Virus record (IMG/VR): IMGVR_UViG_3300021963_000040
Span: 62,001 to 126,000 of that record
Reading direction: 5' to 3' (one strand)
DNA: 64,000 nt
Origin: a virus
The position numbers and the translations under genes are program-made. This document shows positions 24,178-54,513 of the stretch, piece after piece; position 1 is the stretch's first letter; every line of letters begins with the position of its first letter. Below the pieces are notes generated by a model. The model saw nothing but the letters and a program-made list of their open reading frames with translations, was not told where the DNA came from and did not search any database.

Positions 24178-24206
24178 TTGACAACACCTGTAAATAAATA
24201 TATAAT
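24178..24206 (+). promoter_or_regulatory. sigma70-type promoter of the tmRNA unit
   Basis: TTGACA, a 17-base spacer and TATAAT. It drives the two small basic peptides and, by position, both tmRNA pieces down to the terminator at 24857. Confidence 0.85.
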
Positions 24207-24227: not shown

Positions 24228-24335
24228 ATGCCTAGTCCACGTAGAGTAAGTCAAATCCTAAAAGGTAAAAAACCACCTAAGCCAAAAACTGTAAAGCAAA
24301 TGGCCAAACGAGTTGTCCGTAGAAAGAGTAAATAA
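24228..24335 (+). CDS. 35-residue basic peptide
   Basis: MPSPRRVSQILKGKK... ends RRKSK. It has an SD (AAAGGAGAC) and lies directly downstream of a consensus promoter. It is Lys/Arg-rich, so it may bind RNA or ribosomes. The strong SD and tight packing support it being translated. Confidence 0.5.
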   Translation: MPSPRRVSQILKGKKPPKPKTVKQMAKRVVRRKSK

Positions 24336-24337
24336 TC

Positions 24338-24403
24338 ATGGCATACAGAGCAAAAACTAAAACTCAAGCCGCAGTTCGTAGACAACTACGTAAGCGTAAA
24401 TAA
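24338..24403 (+). CDS. 21-residue basic peptide
   Basis: MAYRAKTKTQAAVRRQLRKRK. It starts two bases after the preceding stop and ends exactly where the tmRNA acceptor piece begins. It could also be non-coding leader, but the composition resembles its neighbour. No SD is evident, so coupling is assumed. Confidence 0.38.
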   Translation: MAYRAKTKTQAAVRRQLRKRK

Positions 24404-24472
24404 TAAGAACAGCGTAAACTGTTATTAAGAAAAGTGTTCTGGACGCCGGTTCGACTCCGGCCAGGTCCACCA
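24404..24472 (+). ncRNA. ssrA: tmRNA acceptor piece (permuted, two-piece ssrA)
   Basis: This is the 3' half of a circularly permuted tmRNA. It ends with a five-pair T-arm (GCCGG, TTCGACT loop, CCGGC), then CAGGTCC, discriminator A and CCA. CAGGTCC pairs with GGGCCTG at the start of the coding piece (24676), with one G-U. Upstream, AGCGT, GTTATT and TGTTCTG pair with GCGCT, AATAAT and CAGGGCA of the coding piece, forming helix 2. The exact 5' end is set by processing and cannot be read here. Confidence 0.9.
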
Positions 24473-24483
24473 TAAGGGGAACT

Positions 24484-24663
24484 ATGAATACTGCTCTAGT
24501 TTGGGTTTTGTCGATTACTGTTTTAGGACCTGTTCCTGAACATAAAATATACGCCAAATATAAAACCAAACAAGAGTGTGAGCAAGCGTTAGAGCAATCT
24601 AAAGCAGAGTACAAGTTGCAGAAAAAGAATGTGTCTGCAACTTGTACTGTAACAATGAAATAG
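24484..24663 (+). CDS. small ORF inside the tmRNA intervening segment
   Basis: A 59-residue ORF lying wholly between the CCA of the acceptor piece and the 5' G of the coding piece. An AAGGGGA SD precedes the ATG. Residues 1-18 are hydrophobic (MNTALVWVLSITVLGPVP), resembling a signal or membrane segment; the rest is Lys/Glu-rich with two Cys (TKQECEQ, SATCTV), as in a small exported disulfide protein. It ends in TAG, one of only five visible TAG stops. Translation is likely but unproven. Confidence 0.55.
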   Translation: MNTALVWVLSITVLGPVPEHKIYAKYKTKQECEQALEQSKAEYKLQKKNVSATCTVTMK

Positions 24664-24675
24664 TATCCTTATGAT

Positions 24676-24856
24676 GGGCCTGCACTTGGTTTCGACAGGG
24701 CAAAGAGTAAGAATAATGGCGCTCGGGAATGTGAAACCCGTAGGATTGGGGTAACCCGGTCGAAGAAGCAAAAACGTAACTGCAAACGACGAACAGTTCG
24801 CATTAGCGGCCTAAACTCCGCTTAGGGTAGGAAATACCTCGTAACAGAAACAACCA
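24676..24856 (+). ncRNA. ssrA: tmRNA coding piece with ANDEQFALAA tag
   Basis: The 5' part of the tmRNA begins GGGCCTG and includes a D-loop-like GGTTTCGACAGG. It carries the tag frame at 24782-24811: resume codon GCA, then AAC GAC GAA CAG TTC GCA TTA GCG GCC, TAA. The encoded tag ANDEQFALAA (after the Ala charged on tmRNA) ends in the LAA signal recognised by ClpXP. A GGGTA/TACCT hairpin follows the tag. Ribosome rescue is the established role; the two-piece architecture is inferred from matching acceptor and helix-2 strands 200 bases upstream. Confidence 0.95.
24782..24814 (+). other. ssrA: ssrA proteolysis-tag reading frame
   Basis: Ten codons from the resume GCA to GCC, plus a TAA stop, encode ANDEQFALAA. 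The C-terminal LAA is the ClpX-binding degron, and the inner residues ANDEQ resemble the SspB/ClpA-contacting part of bacterial tags. Confidence 0.95.
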
Positions 24857-24881
24857 ATGCCCGCTTCGGCGGGCATTTTTT
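24857..24881 (+). terminator. intrinsic terminator of tmRNA
   Basis: ATGCCCGC, a TTCG tetraloop and GCGGGCAT are followed by a T-run. Confidence 0.95.
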
Positions 24882-25006
24882 TGGTTAATTTGTTCAAAAA
24901 ACTGTTATTTTTCAATGGTTACTATTGTATAAATGTGGTTACGTACTATATACTATGTATTCGGTGTAACAGCCGGTATACAAATCTTAATATTAAGGAA
25001 AAATAA

Positions 25007-25979: not shown

Positions 25980-26055
25980 GCGTCTGTAGCTAAGTGGAAC
26001 AGCAGAAGCCTCTAAAACTTCAGAAGCGTGGGTTCGATTCCCACCAGACGCACCA
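25980..26055 (+). tRNA. tRNA with CUA anticodon, amber suppressor-like
   Basis: A 76-base cloverleaf with acceptor GCGTCTG/CAGACGC, D-arm GCT/AGC, T-arm GTGGG/CCCAC, discriminator A and an encoded CCA. The anticodon arm is GAAGC, loop CTCTAAA, ACTTC; loop positions 34-36 are CTA, which reads UAG. The loop is the same as that of the E. coli supF suppressor. The short variable loop excludes Leu, Ser and Tyr types; amino-acid identity is not clear. Pair 31-39 is a C-A mismatch. Its relevance is strengthened by the gene at 29437 with an in-frame UAG. Confidence 0.88.
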
Positions 26056-26577: not shown

Positions 26578-27561
26578 GTGAAAAAATTATTCGTGACACT
26601 ACTGGCGGCTTTGGCCGTTTCAGCACAAGCACAGCAAATAGCCGGTGCAGGAGCAACATTTCCTGCTCCGGTTTATTCTAAGTGGGCTTCAGAATACCAC
26701 AAAGAAACTAAAGTACAAATCAACTACGGCCCATTAGGTTCTGCAGGCGGTATCAAACAATTAGAAGCTAATACAGTTAGCTTTGGCGCCACTGACGATC
26801 CTATGAGCGTAGAAGATCTTAACAAGAGAGGGTGGCATCAGTTTCCTGCAGTCATAGGCGGGGTGGTACTGGTTGTTAACCTTAAAGGATTCCAACCCGG
26901 AGAAATCGTTCTTGACGGACAGACAGTAGCAGACATCTATGAAGGCAAAATTCTAAATTGGAACGATCCTAAGATTGCAAAACTTAATCCTAAATTAAAA
27001 TTACCAGACCAACCTATCACTGCGGTAATTAGAGCAGACGGATCTGGAACTACTGCGGTGTTTACAGACTACTTGTCACAGGTCAGCAAGAGTTTTAAAG
27101 AAAGCACTGGTGTAGGTAAGATGGTTAGTTGGAAACTAAAGCAAGTCAGTGCAGGTAAAGGTAACGCAGGTGTTGCCGCAATGGTACAGAACATGAACGG
27201 TGCCATTGGTTATGTTGAATATGCCTTTGCCAAACAAGGTAAGATGACACACGTAGCAATGTTAAACAAAGGCAAAGTCATACAGCCCGACGACTTAACA
27301 TTCAAACAAGCCACAAGTTCTGCTAATTGGAACACTCCAGGAATGGCTGTAAACTTAACCAACAAGGATGGTTGGCCAATCACAGCCGCTACCTTTGTGT
27401 TAGTATACAAAGAAGGCAATGCCAAGACACAGGATGTATTAAAATTCTTTGACTGGGCATTTACCAAAGGCGACAAGATGGCAGAAGACCTAGACTATGT
27501 ACCTTTACCTGACAAAGTAAAAGCACAGATCCGAGCAGACTGGGCAAAGAACATCAAATAG
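26578..27561 (+). CDS. pstS: periplasmic phosphate-binding protein PstS
   Basis: A 327-residue phosphate-binding lipid-free periplasmic protein. A signal peptide (MKKLFVTLLAALAVSAQA) precedes the diagnostic GAGATFPAPVYSKW. The phosphate-contact segments LGSAGG, RADGSGT and GKGNAGVA are all present. It would load phosphate onto the host PstCAB transporter during infection. The start is GTG with an AAGGAGAT SD. A Pho box lies upstream. The stop is TAG and overlaps a convergent small gene. Confidence 0.97.
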   Translation: MKKLFVTLLAALAVSAQAQQIAGAGATFPAPVYSKWASEYHKETKVQINYGPLGSAGGIKQLEANTVSFGATDDPMSVEDLNKRGWHQFPAVIGGVVLVVNLKGFQPGEIVLDGQTVADIYEGKILNWNDPKIAKLNPKLKLPDQPITAVIRADGSGTTAVFTDYLSQVSKSFKESTGVGKMVSWKLKQVSAGKGNAGVAAMVQNMNGAIGYVEYAFAKQGKMTHVAMLNKGKVIQPDDLTFKQATSSANWNTPGMAVNLTNKDGWPITAATFVLVYKEGNAKTQDVLKFFDWAFTKGDKMAEDLDYVPLPDKVKAQIRADWAKNIK

Positions 27562-46087: not shown

Positions 46088-46669
46088 GTGAAAAAGGTAG
46101 AAGATAACATTACAGCACCGGACAGGATAGACCTAAGTCTATTAAACTCTCATACTCATATCCTGACAGGCGACATTGACGAAGAAAATATTAACTCAGC
46201 CATTAAATGGTTATTGTACGAAAATTTAGATCAAAACAAAAATAAAACATTAACATTGTACATTAACTCTACAGGCGGAGACTTATATCAGGCATTTGCT
46301 TTAATAGATATAATGAACAGCAGTCATTATCCTGTTAGAGTTATTGGAATTGGCGCTGTGATGTCGGCCGCCTTTCTTATTTTTGTATCTGGTGCTAAAG
46401 GATTGCGTTATGCGGCACCTACTACCAGTTTTATGTGTCATCAATTCAGTTCTAATACAGAAGCCAAGTATCACGACATTAAAGCAGAAATGAAAGAAAA
46501 CGAATCTTTAAATGCTAAAATGGTTACTATTCTAAAAGAAGCATCAGGCCTTGCAACAGCTAAAATTAAATCTAAACTATTACCAGCTAGCGATGTTTAC
46601 CTTTCTGCACAAGAGATGGTTGACTTAGGTCTAGCTGATCATATATTATATATTACACAAAAGGATTAA
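46088..46669 (+). CDS. clpP: ClpP-like serine protease
   Basis: A 193-residue protein of ClpP fold from GTG 46088, with SD GAAAGG; the ATG at 46084 is in another frame and closed. S93 lies in GIGAVMSAAF and H118 in FMCHQ, at the normal spacing, and INSTGG is the oxyanion/substrate strand. The usual third-triad Asp region (DVYLSAQEMVDLGLADHI) is shifted by an insertion, so I cannot confirm the Asp. Together with the ClpX at 50460 it could form a protease. Confidence 0.85.
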   Translation: MKKVEDNITAPDRIDLSLLNSHTHILTGDIDEENINSAIKWLLYENLDQNKNKTLTLYINSTGGDLYQAFALIDIMNSSHYPVRVIGIGAVMSAAFLIFVSGAKGLRYAAPTTSFMCHQFSSNTEAKYHDIKAEMKENESLNAKMVTILKEASGLATAKIKSKLLPASDVYLSAQEMVDLGLADHILYITQKD

Positions 46670-46670
46670 A

Positions 46671-47330
46671 ATGTTATTCGACAAATCAATTGAAAAGTGG
46701 GACACTATGTACCCGGCCGCGGCCTACTTGATAGAAAAGGATCAACCTTTTGTTGCACCTAAACATGCCAAGTATTGTTCAGCATACGGATATTGTTTTA
46801 GTGACACACAGGTTAAGATTGATAATAAATTACATAAATTAGAAGCAGGACAATATTTTGCTTTCTTTGCCAAAGACAGCATCAAAGTTAAAACTCAAGG
46901 TAGTGCATTTTTAGTAATTAGACTTGGTTACAAAGTAACAAATCAAATTGGCTGGATTGAAGAGCAAGGTCGGTTGACATACATTGACGGTTGTACAGAT
47001 AGTTTATTAGTATACCCGTCACGTCTAGGCGATAGTAGTCTTAACCTACTTTACTTTCCGCCTGGCATTGATCAAACGTTTCATATTCATCCAAGCATTC
47101 GTTTAGGATGTGTGGCACGTGGAAATGGTTTTAGCAACCACGGCGATGCAGATGTTGTAACAGAATCACCCTTAACAGAAGGAAATATTTTCTGTTTAGA
47201 AGAAAACGAACGCCATCGTTTCCGTACCAAAGGTGAAAGTATGACTGTTATTGCTTTTCATCCAGACGGTGATTGGGGTCCTACAGATCACAATCACACT
47301 ATGTTAAACCGCACATATATTAACAAATAA
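46671..47330 (+). CDS. cupin-like protein
   Basis: A 219-residue protein. HIHPSIRLGCVARGNG and ENERHRFRT... with AFHPDGDWGPTDHNH fit the two metal-binding motifs of a cupin barrel. A first half of similar length suggests a bicupin. It begins one base after clpP, so it is in the same operon. Substrate unknown. Confidence 0.68.
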   Translation: MLFDKSIEKWDTMYPAAAYLIEKDQPFVAPKHAKYCSAYGYCFSDTQVKIDNKLHKLEAGQYFAFFAKDSIKVKTQGSAFLVIRLGYKVTNQIGWIEEQGRLTYIDGCTDSLLVYPSRLGDSSLNLLYFPPGIDQTFHIHPSIRLGCVARGNGFSNHGDADVVTESPLTEGNIFCLEENERHRFRTKGESMTVIAFHPDGDWGPTDHNHTMLNRTYINK

Positions 47331-47396
47331 GTCGTTATAACTAACTATAATGACTTGTTTATGTAGTGTAGTTGGGTTCTTCATAAAGAAGATAGT

Positions 47397-47402
47397 TAAA
47401 TA
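47397..47402 (+). promoter_or_regulatory. TAAATA late-promoter-like motif
   Basis: GTTAAATATTATACC lies 33 bases before the SleB-like hydrolase, as expected for a lysis gene expressed late. Confidence 0.42.
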
Positions 47403-47435
47403 TTATACCCACAGTAATACCAACCAGGAGAAAAT

Positions 47436-48074
47436 ATGGTAAAAACAGAAAATATCCTCGGTCTGCCAATTGCAATAACATTAAGCCTTATGCTGATGTT
47501 GTCTGCTAGCTTTATTGGAACTCAAGGTTCTATGTTAGCAGGCTTTGATAGCTTTTTACAGAAAGCAGTAGTATCAATTATAACAAGTGATGCTACCGTT
47601 GCTGACCCTACAAAGCTAGATGCAATAGTTGATTTTAAGGGTGGACGTAAAGTCGACCAACGAGAATTGGCTTGTATGACCGATAACATTTACTATGAGG
47701 CCGCCACACAGAGTACGATGGGTAAGATTGCGGTAGGTCGAGTAGTGTTAAACAGGATTAAAGATCCTCGTTTTCCGAAGACTGTATGCGATGTAGTTTA
47801 TCAAGGTACAGACAGAAAAAGTGGTGTACGTTTAAATGCAACAATGGGCTGTCAGTTTAGCTGGACATGCGACAATTCATTGAAGGCAAAAGTATACCCT
47901 GTCCAATATGAGGAAAGCAAGAAAGTTGCATACCAATTATTAGCGTTTAACAGTTTTAGCGACACCTTAAAAGGAGCGTTGTATTATCATGCAGATTATA
48001 TTAATCCCTTTTGGTCCAATAAATTAAAACCAGTTGCTAAGATTGATAATCACATTTTTTATGTAGAACGTTAA
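47436..48074 (+). CDS. SleB/CwlJ-type cell-wall hydrolase with signal anchor
   Basis: A 212-residue protein. Residues 11-35 form a hydrophobic N-terminal segment (signal peptide or signal anchor). The Hydrolase_2 domain follows: ELACMTDNIYYEAATQS (catalytic Glu88), GRVVLNRIKDPRFP, CQFSWTCD. Such enzymes cleave glycan bonds of peptidoglycan. The export signal means it could act as endolysin without a classic holin. The SD is CAGGAGAA. Confidence 0.9.
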   Translation: MVKTENILGLPIAITLSLMLMLSASFIGTQGSMLAGFDSFLQKAVVSIITSDATVADPTKLDAIVDFKGGRKVDQRELACMTDNIYYEAATQSTMGKIAVGRVVLNRIKDPRFPKTVCDVVYQGTDRKSGVRLNATMGCQFSWTCDNSLKAKVYPVQYEESKKVAYQLLAFNSFSDTLKGALYYHADYINPFWSNKLKPVAKIDNHIFYVER

Positions 48075-48084
48075 TGGGACAAAC

Positions 48085-48426
48085 ATGTTTGAATATAGAG
48101 CACGAGTATTACAGGTAGTAGATTCTACCACATTAGATTTAGAAATTGACTTGGGTTTCAAGTGTTACACAAAACAAAGAGTTAAACTGTGGGGTATTAA
48201 GTCAACAGATGAAACCGGCTCTATAGGAGCAGACAGGCTTAGAGATTTGGTTATGGACAAAGATGTTGTAATCCAAACCAAATTTTCTAGGCGCATTAAA
48301 TTAGGGAGAGTGTTAGGTGTAATTTGGATATATGACAGTAAGTCAAAAACACTTAAAGGCAGTTGCATCAATGAACAATTGGTTAAAGAAAAACTAGCCA
48401 AAGAGTTTGAAAGTGTTGACCAGTAA
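48085..48426 (+). CDS. SNase-like fold protein, active site altered
   Basis: A 113-residue OB-fold protein like staphylococcal nuclease (VLQVVDSTTLDLEIDLGF...VKLWGIKSTDE...GRVLGVIW). The Arg and Asp of the usual R-L-x-G-I-D-x-P-E motif are Lys and Lys here, while the GR of the second catalytic region is kept. Nuclease activity is therefore doubtful; nucleic-acid binding is possible. Confidence 0.75.
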   Translation: MFEYRARVLQVVDSTTLDLEIDLGFKCYTKQRVKLWGIKSTDETGSIGADRLRDLVMDKDVVIQTKFSRRIKLGRVLGVIWIYDSKSKTLKGSCINEQLVKEKLAKEFESVDQ

Positions 48427-48444
48427 TGTCATATATGTTATACT
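48416..48444 (+). promoter_or_regulatory. sigma70-type promoter, short leader
   Basis: TTGACC, a 17-base spacer and TATACT. The ATG at 48458 lies about seven bases after the expected start, with no SD. Confidence 0.75.
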
Positions 48445-48457
48445 ATAAATATAATTT

Positions 48458-50041
48458 ATGATTCTAGCTTGGTTACTTTTATTAACAGGTTTAACAATCT
48501 CAGCGGTTGCAATTTACTATTCTGTAGTAGGTTTAACCGCTATTTTCTCTGCGGCAGTTATACCCATTATCATTATGGGTTCAGCCTTAGAAGTAGGTAA
48601 ACTAGTCTGCGCCAGCTGGCTTAAAGCCAATTGGGAACGTGCTCCTCGATTTATAAAGTGGTACATGATAACCGCAGTGATGGTGCTTATGCTGATCACC
48701 AGCATGGGTATCTTTGGTTTCTTATCAAAGGCACACAACGACCAAAACTTAGTCTCGGGTGATGTTCAAAGTAAGATAGCTATCTACGATGAAAAGATTA
48801 AAACAGCAAAGGAAAATATCGATGCGAACCGTAAGGCGCTTAAACAGATGGATGAAGCTGTGGACCAAGTCATGGGCCGAAGCACAGATGAAAAAGGTGC
48901 AGACAAAGCGGTTGCGATTCGAAGAGCGCAACAAAGAGAACGTGCTCGTCTCCAATCTGAGATCACCGCCGAACAGAAAATTATTAGCCAACTATCTGAG
49001 GAAAGGGCGCCTATTGCCGCTGAGGTACGTAAGGTTGAAGCAGAAGTTGGTCCCATAAAGTATATTGCCAAATTCATCTATGGTGATAAAGGCGCAGACG
49101 AGAACATGCTGGAAAAAGCAGTTACTTGGGTTATCATCTTAATTGTTATTGTGTTTGATCCTCTGGCTGTTATTATGTTGCTGGGCGCACAAATGACATT
49201 TGGTTGGATGCGCGAACAAAAAGAAGAACAACAAGATTTAGATTATGAAATGCAAGAGTTTGAGCGAGAGTTAGAACAAAAACGTAAAGTCGCACAAGCA
49301 CTAGATCGCCAAGAAGATATCCCGGGCGCAGATACGTTTGGTCCTGGTTTTATTGCACAAGAAGTTGCAGAAGTAGTACCAGAAGCTGTAGCAGTAGACG
49401 ACGAAATGCCTAGTTGCTATAAGTGCGGTACTACACTAGTTAATGCTCCGGGCATTGGACCATTTTGTCCTAACAAGAACTGTGACGTATTAGACAAGAC
49501 AGATCCAGATGCTGAGCCAATTACATTTACATATACGCCACCTGCAACATCTGCTTGGCCTTTCCCTGCGGCACAAGACCCTGCACCCATTGTTACAGAA
49601 GTAGTTGAAACAGGTAAGGTACTAGATGAAAAACCAAAAAAACAACGCAAGCCTCGCAAACAAAAAGTACAAGGCCCAATTGAAACTCAAACTGTACAAA
49701 CAACAGACTCTGCTGGAGATCTAACAATAGAGTCTACAACAAACACACAACAGGCACAGACTACAGACATTTTAACCAAAGTTAAACCTGCTAGAGATAT
49801 AGAAAAAGAACAACAGCAGGCCGCAGTTCTGGAAGCTATTATTGAATCTACCAGTCGTCAATCAGACGAACGACCAGGCGATTATGTAACACCCCCTGCC
49901 GACAATGTAGATACACCACGTACAGGAACACATGGCGCACCGTTGCCCGGTGATGAAATATATGCAAAACCTGATAGTGATGTTAAGTATCGTAACCGCC
50001 AGCGTACTGTTGGTGGCTGGTTTCCAGAAACTAAAAAATGA
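48458..50041 (+). CDS. membrane protein with coiled coil and zinc ribbon
   Basis: A 527-residue protein. Two membrane helices pairs lie at about 1-45 and 70-93 and again near 225-255. A long charged coiled coil spans about 100-205 between them. A possible zinc ribbon (CYKCGTTLVNAPGIGPFCPNKNC) is near 320-345, and the rest is Pro/Thr/Glu-rich and disordered. It heads an ATGA-coupled operon with clpX, infC and rpsU. I do not recognise the family; a membrane platform for the operon products is possible. Confidence 0.7.
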   Translation: MILAWLLLLTGLTISAVAIYYSVVGLTAIFSAAVIPIIIMGSALEVGKLVCASWLKANWERAPRFIKWYMITAVMVLMLITSMGIFGFLSKAHNDQNLVSGDVQSKIAIYDEKIKTAKENIDANRKALKQMDEAVDQVMGRSTDEKGADKAVAIRRAQQRERARLQSEITAEQKIISQLSEERAPIAAEVRKVEAEVGPIKYIAKFIYGDKGADENMLEKAVTWVIILIVIVFDPLAVIMLLGAQMTFGWMREQKEEQQDLDYEMQEFERELEQKRKVAQALDRQEDIPGADTFGPGFIAQEVAEVVPEAVAVDDEMPSCYKCGTTLVNAPGIGPFCPNKNCDVLDKTDPDAEPITFTYTPPATSAWPFPAAQDPAPIVTEVVETGKVLDEKPKKQRKPRKQKVQGPIETQTVQTTDSAGDLTIESTTNTQQAQTTDILTKVKPARDIEKEQQQAAVLEAIIESTSRQSDERPGDYVTPPADNVDTPRTGTHGAPLPGDEIYAKPDSDVKYRNRQRTVGGWFPETKK

Positions 50042-50463
50042 GTGACTCTTCATCTTACCTAATTACTCCGCCGAGTATATTTTTACCGCGCCGCGGATTA
50101 ACCTTTTCTTTGATTACTAGAAACTCTAAATGGGTTGAAAACTTTATGGAAATGGCTGAGGATAAATTTCCCGGTACAACTGTAACGTTCTTTTCTTCTC
50201 ACGAAGATGCCGATTTAGAAAAATACGTTTGGACATTCCAGCATGCCACAATAGCAGATTTTGTTATTGTAGACATGGATTCAGCATCAGATACTGATAT
50301 TAACATTGCTCTTATTGTTAGTAAAGGTAAACGTGTTTGGTGGGAATTTTCAGACGAAGATAGTTATGTAACCCTACAAACTATTCTTAATGTTTCAGGT
50401 GCAGGTCTAGTAGACAGCACAGAAGAATTTTTTGAAATGATCAGTGACTTAGACAACGTATGA
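50038..50463 (+). CDS. hypothetical protein, Rossmann-like
   Basis: A 141-residue protein between the membrane protein and clpX, coupled to both by ATGA overlaps. ATIADFVIVDMDSASDTDINIALIVSKGKRVWWEF resembles the D-x-V-I-V-D...GK-x-V pattern seen in nucleoside deoxyribosyltransferase- and TIR-like folds, but this is a weak match. Confidence 0.58.
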   Translation: MSDSSSYLITPPSIFLPRRGLTFSLITRNSKWVENFMEMAEDKFPGTTVTFFSSHEDADLEKYVWTFQHATIADFVIVDMDSASDTDINIALIVSKGKRVWWEFSDEDSYVTLQTILNVSGAGLVDSTEEFFEMISDLDNV

Positions 50464-51692
50464 GTAAAAAAGAAGATACTTTAAGCTGTAGCTTTTGCGC
50501 CAAAGACCGCGAACAAGTTAAAAAAATGGTTGCAGGCCAAGATGTTTATATTTGTGACGAATGTATCGAACTTTGTTATCAAATACTAAAAGATGACAAA
50601 CACGAAGAAGCCAAAGAACAAGGGCAAGTTAGCACCCCAAGGCAAATGAAAGAATTCTTAGATCAGTATGTTATTGGTCAAGAGTATTCTAAGTTTGTGC
50701 TGGCTGTGGCTGTTTATAATCACTATAAACGCATCAACAACATTAACTCAACTACGGAAATCGACAAGAGCAATGTCCTGTTAATTGGTCCTACTGGATC
50801 CGGTAAGACACACCTAGCACGTACTATTGCTCGTATGTTAAATGTTCCATTTGCTATTGCAGATGCCACAAGTCTAACAGAATCAGGATATGTAGGCGAT
50901 GATGTAGAGCACGTTATACATCGTTTGTTAACCGCGGCAGGTAACGACATAACCAAAGCAGAACAGGGTATTGTTTACATTGATGAAATTGATAAAAAGG
51001 GTAAAAAAGGAGAAAGCACTTCAATTACTCGTGACGTATCAGGCGAAGGTGTACAACAAGCTCTGCTCAAACTAATTGAAGGTACAGAATGCCGTGTACC
51101 AACAGGCGGTGGCCGCAGACATCCCGGTCAAGATGGCACTATTGTAAACACTAAAAATATTCTATTCATCTTAGGCGGAGCGTTTGTAGGCTTAGATGAT
51201 ATTATTAATCGTCGTATTAACAAAGACAGTACTACTATTGGATTCAATACACGACTAGATACCAAGAAAGAATCTAAACTGAATCAAGTTGAACCGGAAG
51301 ATATTGTTAAGTTTGGATTAATCCCAGAACTTGTGGGACGTATTCCGGTTGTTGCTACACTAACAGAACTAACAACAGACGAATTAGTTCGTACGTTAAG
51401 AGAACCAAAACACAGCATAGTAAGCCAGTTTGAAGAACTATTTAAATTAGATGGTGTAGATTTAGAAATTACCGACGACGCCGCACTAGCCATGGCCCAA
51501 GAGTGCATAGATAAAAAATTAGGGGCTCGAGGATTACGTGCTGTTATTGAAAGAACATTGCTTAAAACGCAATTTGAGTTACCAGAACTACGCGAACAAG
51601 GAGTTGTGCGTGTTACAGTAACTCCGGAAAGTGTTGCAGGTGCAACACCGATTTATCTTTACAAAGGAGAAGAGCAGTCTAACCATGTTTAA
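50460..51692 (+). CDS. clpX: ATP-dependent protease ATPase subunit ClpX
   Basis: A 410-residue unfoldase with all main features. A zinc-binding domain has C10, C13, C32 and C35. Walker A GPTGSGKT is at 110-117 and Walker B IVYIDE at 171-176. Pore loop GYVG is at 143-146 and arginine finger R294 in LVGRIP. RRH at 219-221 stands where E. coli ClpX has the RKH loop that reads ssrA tags. IGF at 260-262 is the ClpP-docking loop. It should therefore still dock ClpP and pull ssrA-tagged proteins. It overlaps infC by 8 bases. Confidence 0.97.
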
Positions 51693-52263
51693 ACCTAACT
51701 TTAAACAACGATCCAGAACCAACAGGCCAATGAGCCCCATGGATCAGTTAAAACAAAAATATCAAATCAACGAACAGATCACCAGTCATCAAGTTCGAGT
51801 GATTGATCAAGAAGGTAATCCATTGGGAATTATGAGTCGCAGTCAAGCACTTAATAATGCCCGAGACCAAGAAATGGATTTGGTTATGATTGTCCCTCAA
51901 GCACAACCACCGCTTTGCAAAATTATTGACTTTGGGAAATTTGCTTACAACGAGCAAAAGAAACTAAAAGAACAAGAACGTAAGCAAAGGGAAAGTCGTG
52001 TAGATGTAAAGGAAATGCAGTTCCGCCCTGCTATTGATGATCACGACTTTGAAGTCAAAGTTAAAAAAGTACGTGAGATTCTTGACGACGGAGATAAATG
52101 TCGTATAGTTATACGTTTCCGTGGCAGGGAAATGCAAGACACTGGTAAGGGCTTTGAAATTATTAAAAAGATTACCGAACTGGTTGAGGGCTCTCAAATT
52201 GAGGGTCGTGCAGAGCTCGCAGGCAATAGAGTATCAGCAATACTTATGAAAGGTAAAAAATGA
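51685..52263 (+). CDS. infC: translation initiation factor IF-3
   Basis: A full-length 192-residue IF3. The N-domain (YQINEQITSHQVRVIDQEGNPLGIMS...) and C-domain (KEMQFRPAIDDHDFEVKVKKVREIL...RFRGREM) are both intact. IF3 binds the 30S subunit, prevents 70S joining and rejects non-canonical starts and leaderless messages. I chose ATG 51685, which overlaps the clpX end; unlike most bacterial infC genes it does not use AUU. It couples to rpsU by ATGA. A phage-encoded IF3 could change host initiation. Confidence 0.95.
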   Translation: MFKPNFKQRSRTNRPMSPMDQLKQKYQINEQITSHQVRVIDQEGNPLGIMSRSQALNNARDQEMDLVMIVPQAQPPLCKIIDFGKFAYNEQKKLKEQERKQRESRVDVKEMQFRPAIDDHDFEVKVKKVREILDDGDKCRIVIRFRGREMQDTGKGFEIIKKITELVEGSQIEGRAELAGNRVSAILMKGKK

Positions 52264-52502
52264 AAGACCGTAACAAAGACAGAGCCTGTCGCGGTGTGCA
52301 TGTTGTAGTTTGGAACGACAACGTTGAAAAAGCACTAAGAACTTTTAAGAAGAAAGTTGCCGATTTAGGTACATTAAAAACTCTACGTGATAAAGAGTTT
52401 TACGAAAAGCCAACTACTGTTCGTAAACGCAAAGCCGGCGCGGCCAAATCACGTTGGAAAAAATATCTACGCAGTCAACAACTTCCGCCAAAACTTTATT
52501 AA
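52260..52502 (+). CDS. rpsU: ribosomal protein bS21
   Basis: An 80-residue basic protein with the S21 pattern (VHVVVWNDNVEKALRTFKKKVADLGTLKTLRDKEFYEKPTTVRKRK). bS21 sits near the anti-SD on the 30S subunit and helps mRNA selection. Phage-encoded S21 is known from several aquatic phages and can replace the host copy. It is coupled to infC by ATGA, making an initiation-factor/ribosomal-protein cassette. Confidence 0.93.
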   Translation: MKDRNKDRACRGVHVVVWNDNVEKALRTFKKKVADLGTLKTLRDKEFYEKPTTVRKRKAGAAKSRWKKYLRSQQLPPKLY

Positions 52503-52505
52503 CTA

Positions 52506-52534
52506 TTGACTTAATGATAGAATTCTGTTATAAA
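52506..52534 (+). promoter_or_regulatory. sigma70-type promoter
   Basis: TTGACT, a 17-base spacer and TATAAA upstream of the Hsp20 gene. Confidence 0.75.
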
Positions 52535-52591
52535 TATATTTGTAGGACGCCATAAGGGTTCTACTTAAACTCGCTTAATAAGGAGAAATTT

Positions 52592-53032
52592 ATGAACGCA
52601 TTAACTCGTTTTGATACAAACGCCCTAGCTCAATTGAACAGAGCACTTGTTGGGTTCGATCGTATGTTTGATAACTTTGAAGTACGACTCGGACAGCATA
52701 CCAACAACTATCCACCTCACAATGTTGTAAAAACAGGCGAAGATACTTACCGTATTGAAGTTGCTGTTGCAGGATTCACTATGGAAGAAATCGATGTAGA
52801 GGTAGACAACAATGAGCTGATCATCAAAGGGCAAATCAAACGTTCCGATGATGCCAGCTACGAATATCTACATCGTGGTCTAGCACGTCGTGACTTTGAG
52901 CGTAGATTTACTTTGGTAGACTACATTGAAGTTAATGGTGCTAGCATTAGCAATGGTATTCTAAACGTTGAACTCAAACGTGTAGTACCAGATGCAATGA
53001 AACCACGCAAGATTGCAATTTCTGCATCTTGA
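52592..53032 (+). CDS. small heat-shock protein Hsp20 (IbpA-like)
   Basis: A 146-residue alpha-crystallin-domain chaperone, domain about 37-135, with (YRIEVAVAGF, DVEVDNNELIIKGQ, ARRDFERRFTL). The expected C-terminal IxI-type patch may be the KIAIS end. Hsp20 is recurrent in T4-like cyanophages and probably protects proteins during assembly. It has a strong SD (AAGGAGAA), a promoter of its own, and ClpS follows. Confidence 0.92.
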   Translation: MNALTRFDTNALAQLNRALVGFDRMFDNFEVRLGQHTNNYPPHNVVKTGEDTYRIEVAVAGFTMEEIDVEVDNNELIIKGQIKRSDDASYEYLHRGLARRDFERRFTLVDYIEVNGASISNGILNVELKRVVPDAMKPRKIAISAS

Positions 53033-53038
53033 TAAACC

Positions 53039-53056
53039 AGGGGAGGAAACTCCCCT
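53039..53056 (+). other. GAAA-tetraloop hairpin between hsp20 and clpS
   Basis: AGGGGAG, GAAA and CTCCCCT form a perfect 7-bp hairpin with a GNRA-type tetraloop and no T-run. It is more likely an mRNA stability element than a terminator. Confidence 0.6.
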
Positions 53057-53072
53057 ACTATTAAATAATATT

Positions 53073-53375
53073 ATGGCCAAGACAGAAACCGCAATCAAAG
53101 AACGTTCAGTTACTAAAGTTAAAAAACCTAGTATGTTTAAGGTTATCTTTAATAACGATAACAAGACTCCCATGGACTTTGTTGTAGAAGTTCTAATGAT
53201 AATTTTCCGCCATGACCAAAAATCTGCAGAACATATTACACTAGAAATACACAATAAAGGCAAAGGCGTAGCAGGTGTTTATACTTACGAAATTGCCGAA
53301 CAGAAAACCGTTGAAACAACAGCCGCCGCACGTCAGAACGGGTTCCCACTAACAGTTAGTGTCGAACCAGAATAA
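53073..53375 (+). CDS. clpS: ClpS-like N-degron adaptor
   Basis: A 100-residue adaptor from ATG 53073. FNNDNKTPMDFVVEVL and LEIHNKGKGVAGVYTYEIAEQK match the ClpS core. The N-degron pocket residues map as D29, Asn30 (normally Asp), Met34 and His60, so the pocket is nearly intact. ClpS usually serves ClpA; only ClpX is seen in this window, so it may redirect host ClpAP or use the phage ClpX. The longer frame starting inside hsp20 is rejected. Confidence 0.92.
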   Translation: MAKTETAIKERSVTKVKKPSMFKVIFNNDNKTPMDFVVEVLMIIFRHDQKSAEHITLEIHNKGKGVAGVYTYEIAEQKTVETTAAARQNGFPLTVSVEPE

Positions 53376-53388
53376 CTCCCAATAAATT

Positions 53389-54513
53389 ATGCGTATCCTA
53401 GAAGATATCAAGTTAGATTTCCGCGACGTTTTAATCTTACCAAAACGTAGCACACTAGCAAGCCGCCGCGAAGTTGATCTTCACAGAAATTTTGTATTCC
53501 GAAACAGCGGAGAAGGCTATCAAGGTATACCAATCATGGCCGCCAATATGGATGGCGTAGGTACATTCGAAATGGCAGAAGCTCTTGCAGAACAAGGTAT
53601 GTTTACTTGTATACGCAAGCAATATACAGTTCAAGAATGGACTGATTGGTACAATTATATTAAAGAAAATAACGCCAACTACCGGGCTATAATTTCCGAC
53701 AATATTGCTATTAGTACAGGAACTAGTGAATCAGACTTTGAAAAATTAAAAGCAATTACAGATAGTATCCCTGGCATTCGATTTATCTGCATCGACATCG
53801 CCAATGGATATTCGGAACATTTTGGCGATTATGTAGCAAAAGTACGCAGTAAGTTCTTTAATAAAGTTATCATTGCCGGTAATGTAGTAACCGGAGATAT
53901 GACACAAGAACTAATTTTACGTGGTGCGGATATTGTTAAAGTGGGGATCGGGCCTGGCTCTGTTTGTACTACTCGTGTGCAAACTGGAGTAGGCTATCCA
54001 CAACTTAGTGCTATTATTGAATGCGCCGATGCCGCTCACGGGCTTAACGGACAAATCATTGCTGATGGCGGCTGTACTTGTCCCGGTGATGTTGCCAAGG
54101 CTTTTGGCGCCGGCGCAGACTTTGTAATGCTAGGCGGTATGCTAGCAGGACACGTTGAAGGTGGCGGCGAAATTATTCAAAAATTATACGAAACAAATGA
54201 ATTTGGACCAATGGATCAAGGTGACCATGCACCTTCAAAGAAAATTGAAGTTAAAAAGTTTGTGCAGTTTTATGGCATGAGTTCAGATACCGCTATGGGC
54301 AAGCACTCGGGCGGAGTAGCAGAATATCGTAGCAGTGAGGGTCGTACGGTCACAGTACCATATCGTGGTGCAGTAAAGTCTACTGTACTAGACTTTCTAG
54401 GCGGTCTGCGTAGTACCTGCACTTATGTAGGAGCCCCTACCCTAAAACAACTGCCAAAATGTACTACTTTTGTACGGGTAAATCGGCAGATCAATGACGT
54501 ATTTCTTGGTTGA
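53389..54513 (+). CDS. guaC: GMP reductase
   Basis: A 374-residue IMPDH/GMPR barrel enzyme. GPGSVCTTR with catalytic C193, and [27 protein letters not shown], define the family. The absence of a CBS domain separates it from IMP dehydrogenase. It converts GMP to IMP with NADPH, recycling purines for phage DNA synthesis. It follows clpS by 13 bases. Confidence 0.92.

Follow-up and report, generated by a model that had tools for sequence, protein, structure and literature searches.

Permuted tmRNAs, in which the acceptor half lies ahead of the coding half, are found in Alpha- and Betaproteobacteria and in Cyanobacteria (Rfam family RF04321), and two-piece tmRNAs are already known in phages, the Methylophilales phage Melnitz (MZ577097) carrying one (PMC9004378). 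In the available text of a 2025 tmRNA census, one intervening sequence holds a tRNA gene and another a repetitive element, and no protein gene is described in any (PMC11915505). Here we analyse a 64,000-nucleotide stretch of viral DNA (the window, to which all positions refer) with a phage-borne locus that, like Melnitz, encodes a two-piece tmRNA and that has the half order, G3-U70 acceptor stem, helix 2 and tag frame of the bacterial family, as well as a pyrimidine-rich stretch leading into the coding half, a feature shared with the betaproteobacterial Thauera sequences of our sample. The bacterial permuted tmRNAs that we sampled have a short intervening segment (IVS) with no complete open reading frame (ORF) led by a Shine-Dalgarno (SD) sequence, whereas the IVS in the window is 203 nt long and contains a gene. 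Our main reading, to which we give a probability of roughly 85%, is that this is a phage two-piece tmRNA whose IVS doubles as a slot for a protein gene. It rests on how the locus is built, on the selection that acts on the nested gene, on the finding of such genes in many phages and in none of the sampled bacteria, and on the exchange of cargo among tmRNAs.

Anatomy of the two-piece tmRNA

The window belongs to a virus record of 134,798 bp that encodes a primase, a DnaB-like helicase, a ribonucleotide reductase and a tail fibre. The initial annotation had read positions 24404-24881 as a circularly permuted two-piece tmRNA, and sequence analysis supports this reading by covariance model, by ARAGORN, by identity elements and by covariation. 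The Rfam model RF04321 (tmRNA_permuted) matches 24411-24814 with 114.7 bits (gathering cut-off 47; E 1.2e-21) over model positions 1-213 of 213, and ARAGORN, which is independent of Rfam, calls a permuted tmRNA at 24380-24905 with the tag ANDEQFALAA. The strands proposed to pair across the two halves do so in the RF04321 structure line, and the acceptor stem GGGCCTG/CAGGTCC forms 7 bp with G3-U70 as its third pair, followed by A73 and CCA. G3-U70 and A73 are alanine identity elements. We collected tmRNA-like domains from phages and found G3-U70 in 113 of 123 distinct tmRNAs; acceptor-stem pairs 4 and 5 covary across the collection, and the T stem covaries as well, being GCCGG/CCGGC in the window and GGGGG/CCCCC in a second phage contig, L002.

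The annotated ends of the pieces also hold, with CCA at 24472 as the end of the acceptor half and 24676 as the start of the coding half, which carries the tag. Two findings had been named that would speak against a two-piece gene, namely the lack of a covariance-model match and a second acceptor arm downstream of the coding piece; the match is present, and no second acceptor or T arm was found 3′ of the coding half. The 3′ end of the coding half has the conserved element ACCTCGTAACAGAA, and an intrinsic terminator follows at 24856-24877. This terminator and, on the 5′ side, a perfect match to the sigma70 promoter consensus are the predicted limits of the transcript, and the promoter lies, as annotated, upstream of small basic ORFs and the tmRNA. 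We rejected an assignment to the betaproteobacterial subtype, as the old beta_tmRNA model (RF01850) matched the coding half alone with 52.9 bits, below its cut-off of 84. Permuted tmRNAs with tags of 15-31 residues (e.g., ANADTFDFSAMSFTGNTVRGAANESRFALAA), as against 10, were called in several other viral stretches (L066, L124, L128 and others). Where the initial annotation was incomplete is in what it left unreported, a protein gene nested in the IVS and phage genes for ClpX and ClpP (Table 1).

Table 1. Features of the tmRNA locus and the phage Clp genes, in window positions
Feature	Position	Strand	Basis
Sigma70-type promoter, TTGACA-17-TATAAT	24178..24206	+	12/12 consensus match only
Basic ORF of 35 aa on the same predicted transcript, upstream of the tmRNA	24228..24335	+	Weak HTH_3 match, E 0.0019, below cut-off
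Basic ORF of 21 aa, adjoining the acceptor half on its 5′ side	24338..24403	+	No family match
Acceptor half: helix-2 strands, T arm, acceptor 3′ strand CAGGTCC, A73, CCA; 5′ end predicted	24404..24472	+	RF04321 and ARAGORN
IVS, 203 nt, excision expected	24473..24675	+	Both ends pair
SD AAGGGG, one nucleotide after CCA	24474..24479	+	Sequence; association of AGG with ORFs
59-aa protein gene in the IVS, ATG...TAG	24484..24663	+	dN/dS, model pLDDT, fold match
Pyrimidine-rich leader TATCCTTATGAT before the coding half	24664..24675	+	Phage leader consensus; predicted pairing with the SD region, duplex -9.4 kcal/mol
Coding half: acceptor 5′ strand GGGCCTG, D-loop region GGTTTCGAC, helix 2, tag frame, 3′ conserved element	24676..24855	+	
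Tag frame ANDEQFALAA and TAA: resume codon, stop, hydrophobic LAA-type end	24782..24814	+	Rfam/ARAGORN
Intrinsic terminator hairpin and T run	24856..24883	+	Sequence
Phage ClpP-family peptidase	46088..46669	+	PF00574, E 4e-34; Ser-His-Asp aligned with the triad of ClpP chains
Phage ClpX	50460..51692	+	NCBIfam equivalog; zinc finger, Walker A GPTGSGKT, pore loop GYVG, IGF ClpP-binding loop

Other genes near the tmRNA were also observed. About 1.1 kb after it, at 25980-26055, lies a tRNA with a CTA anticodon (amber suppressor-like; "Pyl" according to ARAGORN), and a CTA tRNA also occurs in the viral stretch L172. We considered and rejected recoding of TAG, which ends 3 of the 64 genes of at least 110 aa; none of these runs far past the TAG, and there is no sign of recoding. 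An auxiliary gene for a PstS-like phosphate-transporter subunit is found at 26578-27561 (phrog_5385, 1.4e-59).

The nested gene and its recurrence

The IVS, a segment that known permuted tmRNAs lose during processing, is nearly filled by a 59-codon ORF. We found the same tmRNA with the same ORF on one other phage contig (L002/L079, IMGVR_UViG_3300023174_004538), where the protein is 83% identical and the flanks are unrelated. The two ORFs differ at 8, 4 and 17 sites in the three codon positions, mostly at the third, which corresponds to a dN/dS of 0.20 (Fisher p 7e-5), and by this comparison the 59-aa gene is under purifying selection. AlphaFold2, with two sequences only as input, gives a compact beta-beta-alpha-beta model with a pLDDT of 84.6. 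The best Foldseek matches to this model are small phage proteins of ~53-73 residues, mostly uncharacterised (probability 1.00, TM 0.80-0.85, with E at least 0.018 for so short a chain), and one match is to a DUF1482 protein (TM 0.60). Searches of Pfam with the protein gave no match and of the PDB with the model no convincing one, and INPHARED has no named phage close to the window's tmRNA or the 59-aa gene; the closest named two-piece tmRNAs came to light by way of other loci. Inside the gene, GGACCTG at 24527-24533 is a perfect complement of the acceptor 3′ strand CAGGTCC and could form an alternative acceptor pairing; such 7-nt acceptor decoys occur in 3 of 102 segments, two of them related, compared with 0.4 expected, which is too few to conclude from.

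To sample phage segments with no selection for ORFs, we scanned metagenomic viral contigs for the tag ANDEQFALAA, and the resulting 119 stretches, confined to tmRNAs with this tag, gave 66 distinct IVS clusters with a median length of 87 nt. An SD-led ORF of at least 20 aa is present in 18 of these clusters (1.3 in shuffles), and in 14 it is complete, ending inside the IVS (shuffle mean 0.3, maximum 3). These phage counts are low because ARAGORN misses long segments. For bacteria, we used a Pseudomonadota sample of loci found in prokaryote genomes by the same covariance model and by pattern matches; none of its 64 IVS clusters (median 34.5 nt, maximum 90 by ARAGORN) contains a complete SD-led ORF. 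Another 12 bacterial loci escaped ARAGORN and were checked by covariance model only; they match the model for alphaproteobacterial tmRNA, and the two longest IVS among their inspected alignments have no SD at the start. A pattern of acceptor half, SD and ATG was found in 98 viral stretches versus 5 times in 84,980 bacterial and archaeal genomes, the two collections not being normalised for their number of permuted tmRNAs. Four of these five prokaryote matches are Thauera-like tmRNAs with an IVS of ~36 nt and the fifth is not called as a tmRNA, and none of the five has a complete nested gene.

Pairs of homologous nested ORFs have dN/dS values mostly between 0.1 and 0.3. Where the frames reach into the coding half, some pairs fall outside this range, as would be expected from the additional constraint of RNA structure there. 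In many phages the nested stop is the UGA of a conserved UGAU and forms the last codon before the coding half. The nested frames of five stretches (L042, L062, L126, L146 and L204), all encoding peptides with a single membrane span, pass the IVS end and stop in the coding half, and they would therefore be complete only on the uncut precursor.

Cargo exchange, precursor folding and rival readings

The proteins encoded in the IVS differ widely among phages. A thioredoxin with the CGPC motif (Pfam, 4.1e-21) occupies the IVS of three stretches (L138, L162 and L181), flanked by halves that score 136 bits, and a DUF2061 membrane protein (3.7e-21) occupies that of L019 and L034; in MW202753, the record with the DUF2061 relative, we found no permuted tmRNA match. 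Other segments encode proteins of 104 aa (L172), 122 aa (L189) and 124 aa (L148/L199), or small peptides (e.g., MNDNL...VVVLVVFALVLL), including cysteine-rich and membrane peptides. In L172, the first 800 bases of the minus strand hold a permuted tmRNA around the 104-aa gene, which has no family match; its tag, read by eye, is ANDSVYALAA, and ARAGORN did not call it, probably on account of the long segment.

Two comparisons bear on the exchange of cargo. The phages L009, L019 and L081 are near-identical over kilobases, and between L009 and L019 the acceptor half is 100%, the coding half 98.4% and the upstream region 94% identical, whereas the alignment of their IVS bodies does not exceed chance and the encoded proteins are unrelated. 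The reverse is seen between L121 and L145, where the IVS body is 93% identical while the tmRNA halves are 77-81% identical and the flanks unrelated. From these patterns we conclude that cargo has been swapped between tmRNAs, and, as judged from such alignments, the phage IVS is an exchangeable cargo slot for protein genes. We think it reasonably likely that the IVS serves in general as a site where phages exchange small genes for host takeover, the halves acting as constant flanks for recombinational swaps of unrelated cassettes and tmRNA processing timing or restricting cargo expression.

In the predicted fold of the window precursor, the acceptor stem is closed and the IVS ends are paired, covering the SD and AUG. 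With transcription to 24663, the predicted pairing is 0.48 for the SD and 0.44 for the AUG, and from 24675 on it is 0.79 and 0.77; before the leader is made the values are lower, but not uniformly (SD 0.76 at 24600). The phage leader consensus has UGAU just before the coding half. The IVS ends pair better with each other than with swapped or shuffled partners in phages and also in bacteria without ORFs, so the AAG after CCA is partly structural, and the pairing probably predates the cargo. The extension to AGG follows the ORFs, being present in 11 of 13 clusters with an ORF versus 8 of 46 without (Fisher p 1.5e-5), and several of these 8 have ORFs that start with GTG or TTG or that enter the coding half.

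The phage ClpX scores 559.6 and 529.1 bits against the equivalogs NF003745 and TIGR00382 (cut-offs 359 and 370.75), and ClpX-like matches at E 1e-40 were found in 67 of 50,697 phage records. We examined 40 records, the window phage's and 39 others, many of them fragments and not all with a confirmed permuted call: 6 have ClpX, 18 have ClpP and none has SmpB, which the host presumably supplies. The region 46088-54513 contains genes for ClpP, ClpX, IF-3, ribosomal protein bS21, Hsp20 and an IMPDH-family protein, and clpX overlaps the IF-3 gene.

Could this simply be an ordinary phage two-piece tmRNA with an accidental, untranslated frame in its IVS? The tmRNA alone explains the RF04321 and ARAGORN calls, and the sampled bacterial spacers have no complete SD-led ORF, but such an accident is very hard to reconcile with the dN/dS of the 59-aa gene, with 14 complete ORFs where 0.3 are expected, with thioredoxin and DUF2061 domains at the corresponding place in other phages, with cassette exchange between tmRNAs and with a confidently predicted fold, and we regard it as highly improbable. 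It is also improbable that the AAGG after CCA is kept only to pair, as a processing helix, with the pyrimidine-rich stretch ahead of the coding half and has no role in ribosome binding. The preferential pairing of the IVS ends, in phages and in ORF-free bacteria, and the predicted pairing of the SD in the full precursor agree with a processing helix, whereas the association of AGG with ORFs, including the GTG/TTG-start and run-through ORFs just mentioned, and the selection on these ORFs argue for more than that.

Two further alternatives include the nested gene. In the available text of PMC11915505, the tag-less tmRNA of mycobacteriophage DS6A inhibits the host tmRNA in E. coli, and a phage tmRNA that was likewise a non-working decoy, tying up host SmpB or alanyl-tRNA synthetase with the nested gene as payload, would fit with the lack of SmpB in the records examined. 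We consider a decoy unlikely here, since the tag frame with its stop codon, the resume region, G3-U70 and helix 2 are all intact, the tag ends in LAA, and the phage has both ClpX and ClpP. An ArfA-like feedback circuit is a further candidate, in which the excised IVS would be an mRNA with its stop at or near the 3′ end, so that the tmRNA tags its own nested product and this product accumulates only when trans-translation is short. The stop that is the last codon before the coding half in many phages, within a UGAU consensus that abuts the RNase P site, would suit such a circuit, but in the window 12 nt separate the stop from the cut, and thioredoxin, DUF2061 and cysteine-rich and membrane peptides are too diverse a cargo for one regulator; we find this circuit doubtful as well.

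Proposed mechanism and comparison with known systems

With the IVS as a protein-gene slot, we infer translation of the nested gene, an order of processing and a pairing of the tmRNA with the phage ClpXP, as follows. One promoter would give one precursor with the two small basic peptides, the acceptor half, the 59-aa gene, the coding half and the terminator. Ribosomes most likely load on the SD after CCA and read the 59-aa gene while the precursor is nascent or still unprocessed. Once the coding half is made, the acceptor stem would close and the IVS ends would pair over the SD and AUG; RNase P would then cut at 24675/24676, trimming would expose the CCA at 24472, and the IVS would be lost. The two mature pieces, joined by the acceptor stem and helix 2, would receive alanine, work with host SmpB, free stalled ribosomes and append the ClpX-type degron ANDEQFALAA. 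Chains with this tag could be degraded by the phage ClpX and ClpP, and the phage ClpXP may act on the tag of its own tmRNA.

If this is so, a structural RNA gene cut in two is also, in many phages, the messenger for an exchangeable protein gene in its discarded piece, and the IVS is a defined place to look for small takeover proteins of phages, which an annotation that treats the whole tmRNA as a single block, such as that of Melnitz, can overlook. It also raises the testable question of how a single RNA can serve both RNase P processing and translation, and tmRNA together with phage ClpX and ClpP suggests that some phages have their own tag-and-degrade pathway, except for SmpB.

Several described systems resemble parts of this locus. 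The 142-nt IVS of Melnitz has an SD and an ATG open frame (MFKWLSKTRLVV...) running into the coding half; its record has a single tmRNA feature and no annotated nested CDS, and its tag differs from that of the window. The available text of the Melnitz paper describes a glutamine riboswitch in the ssrA 3′ domain and mentions no nested CDS (PMC9004378). As Melnitz is cultured and has a comparable IVS frame, the idea of nested genes is testable. The Sinorhizobium jumbo phage AP-J-162 resembles the window phage in having a tmRNA, a clpX adjoining IF-3 and Hsp20 in one phage (PMC11242549). According to the available text of PMC11915505, the permuted tmRNA of GCA-2688965 sp002688965 also has a gene nested in its intervening sequence, but this is an RNA gene (tRNA-Ala) in a single, nominally archaeal MAG, in contrast to protein genes in many phages. 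The same text describes tmRNAs with group I introns that carry genes for LAGLIDADG homing endonucleases. In these, as is expected in the window, a protein ORF lies in a part of the tmRNA gene that is removed; there, however, the part is a self-splicing intron in the T loop that carries a homing enzyme, while the phage slot involves no intron and holds cargo of unrelated families (PMC11915505). We found no report of protein genes nested in a tmRNA IVS in the open-access literature, and so, while the two-piece phage tmRNA is by itself known, the nested protein genes appear to be the novel part.
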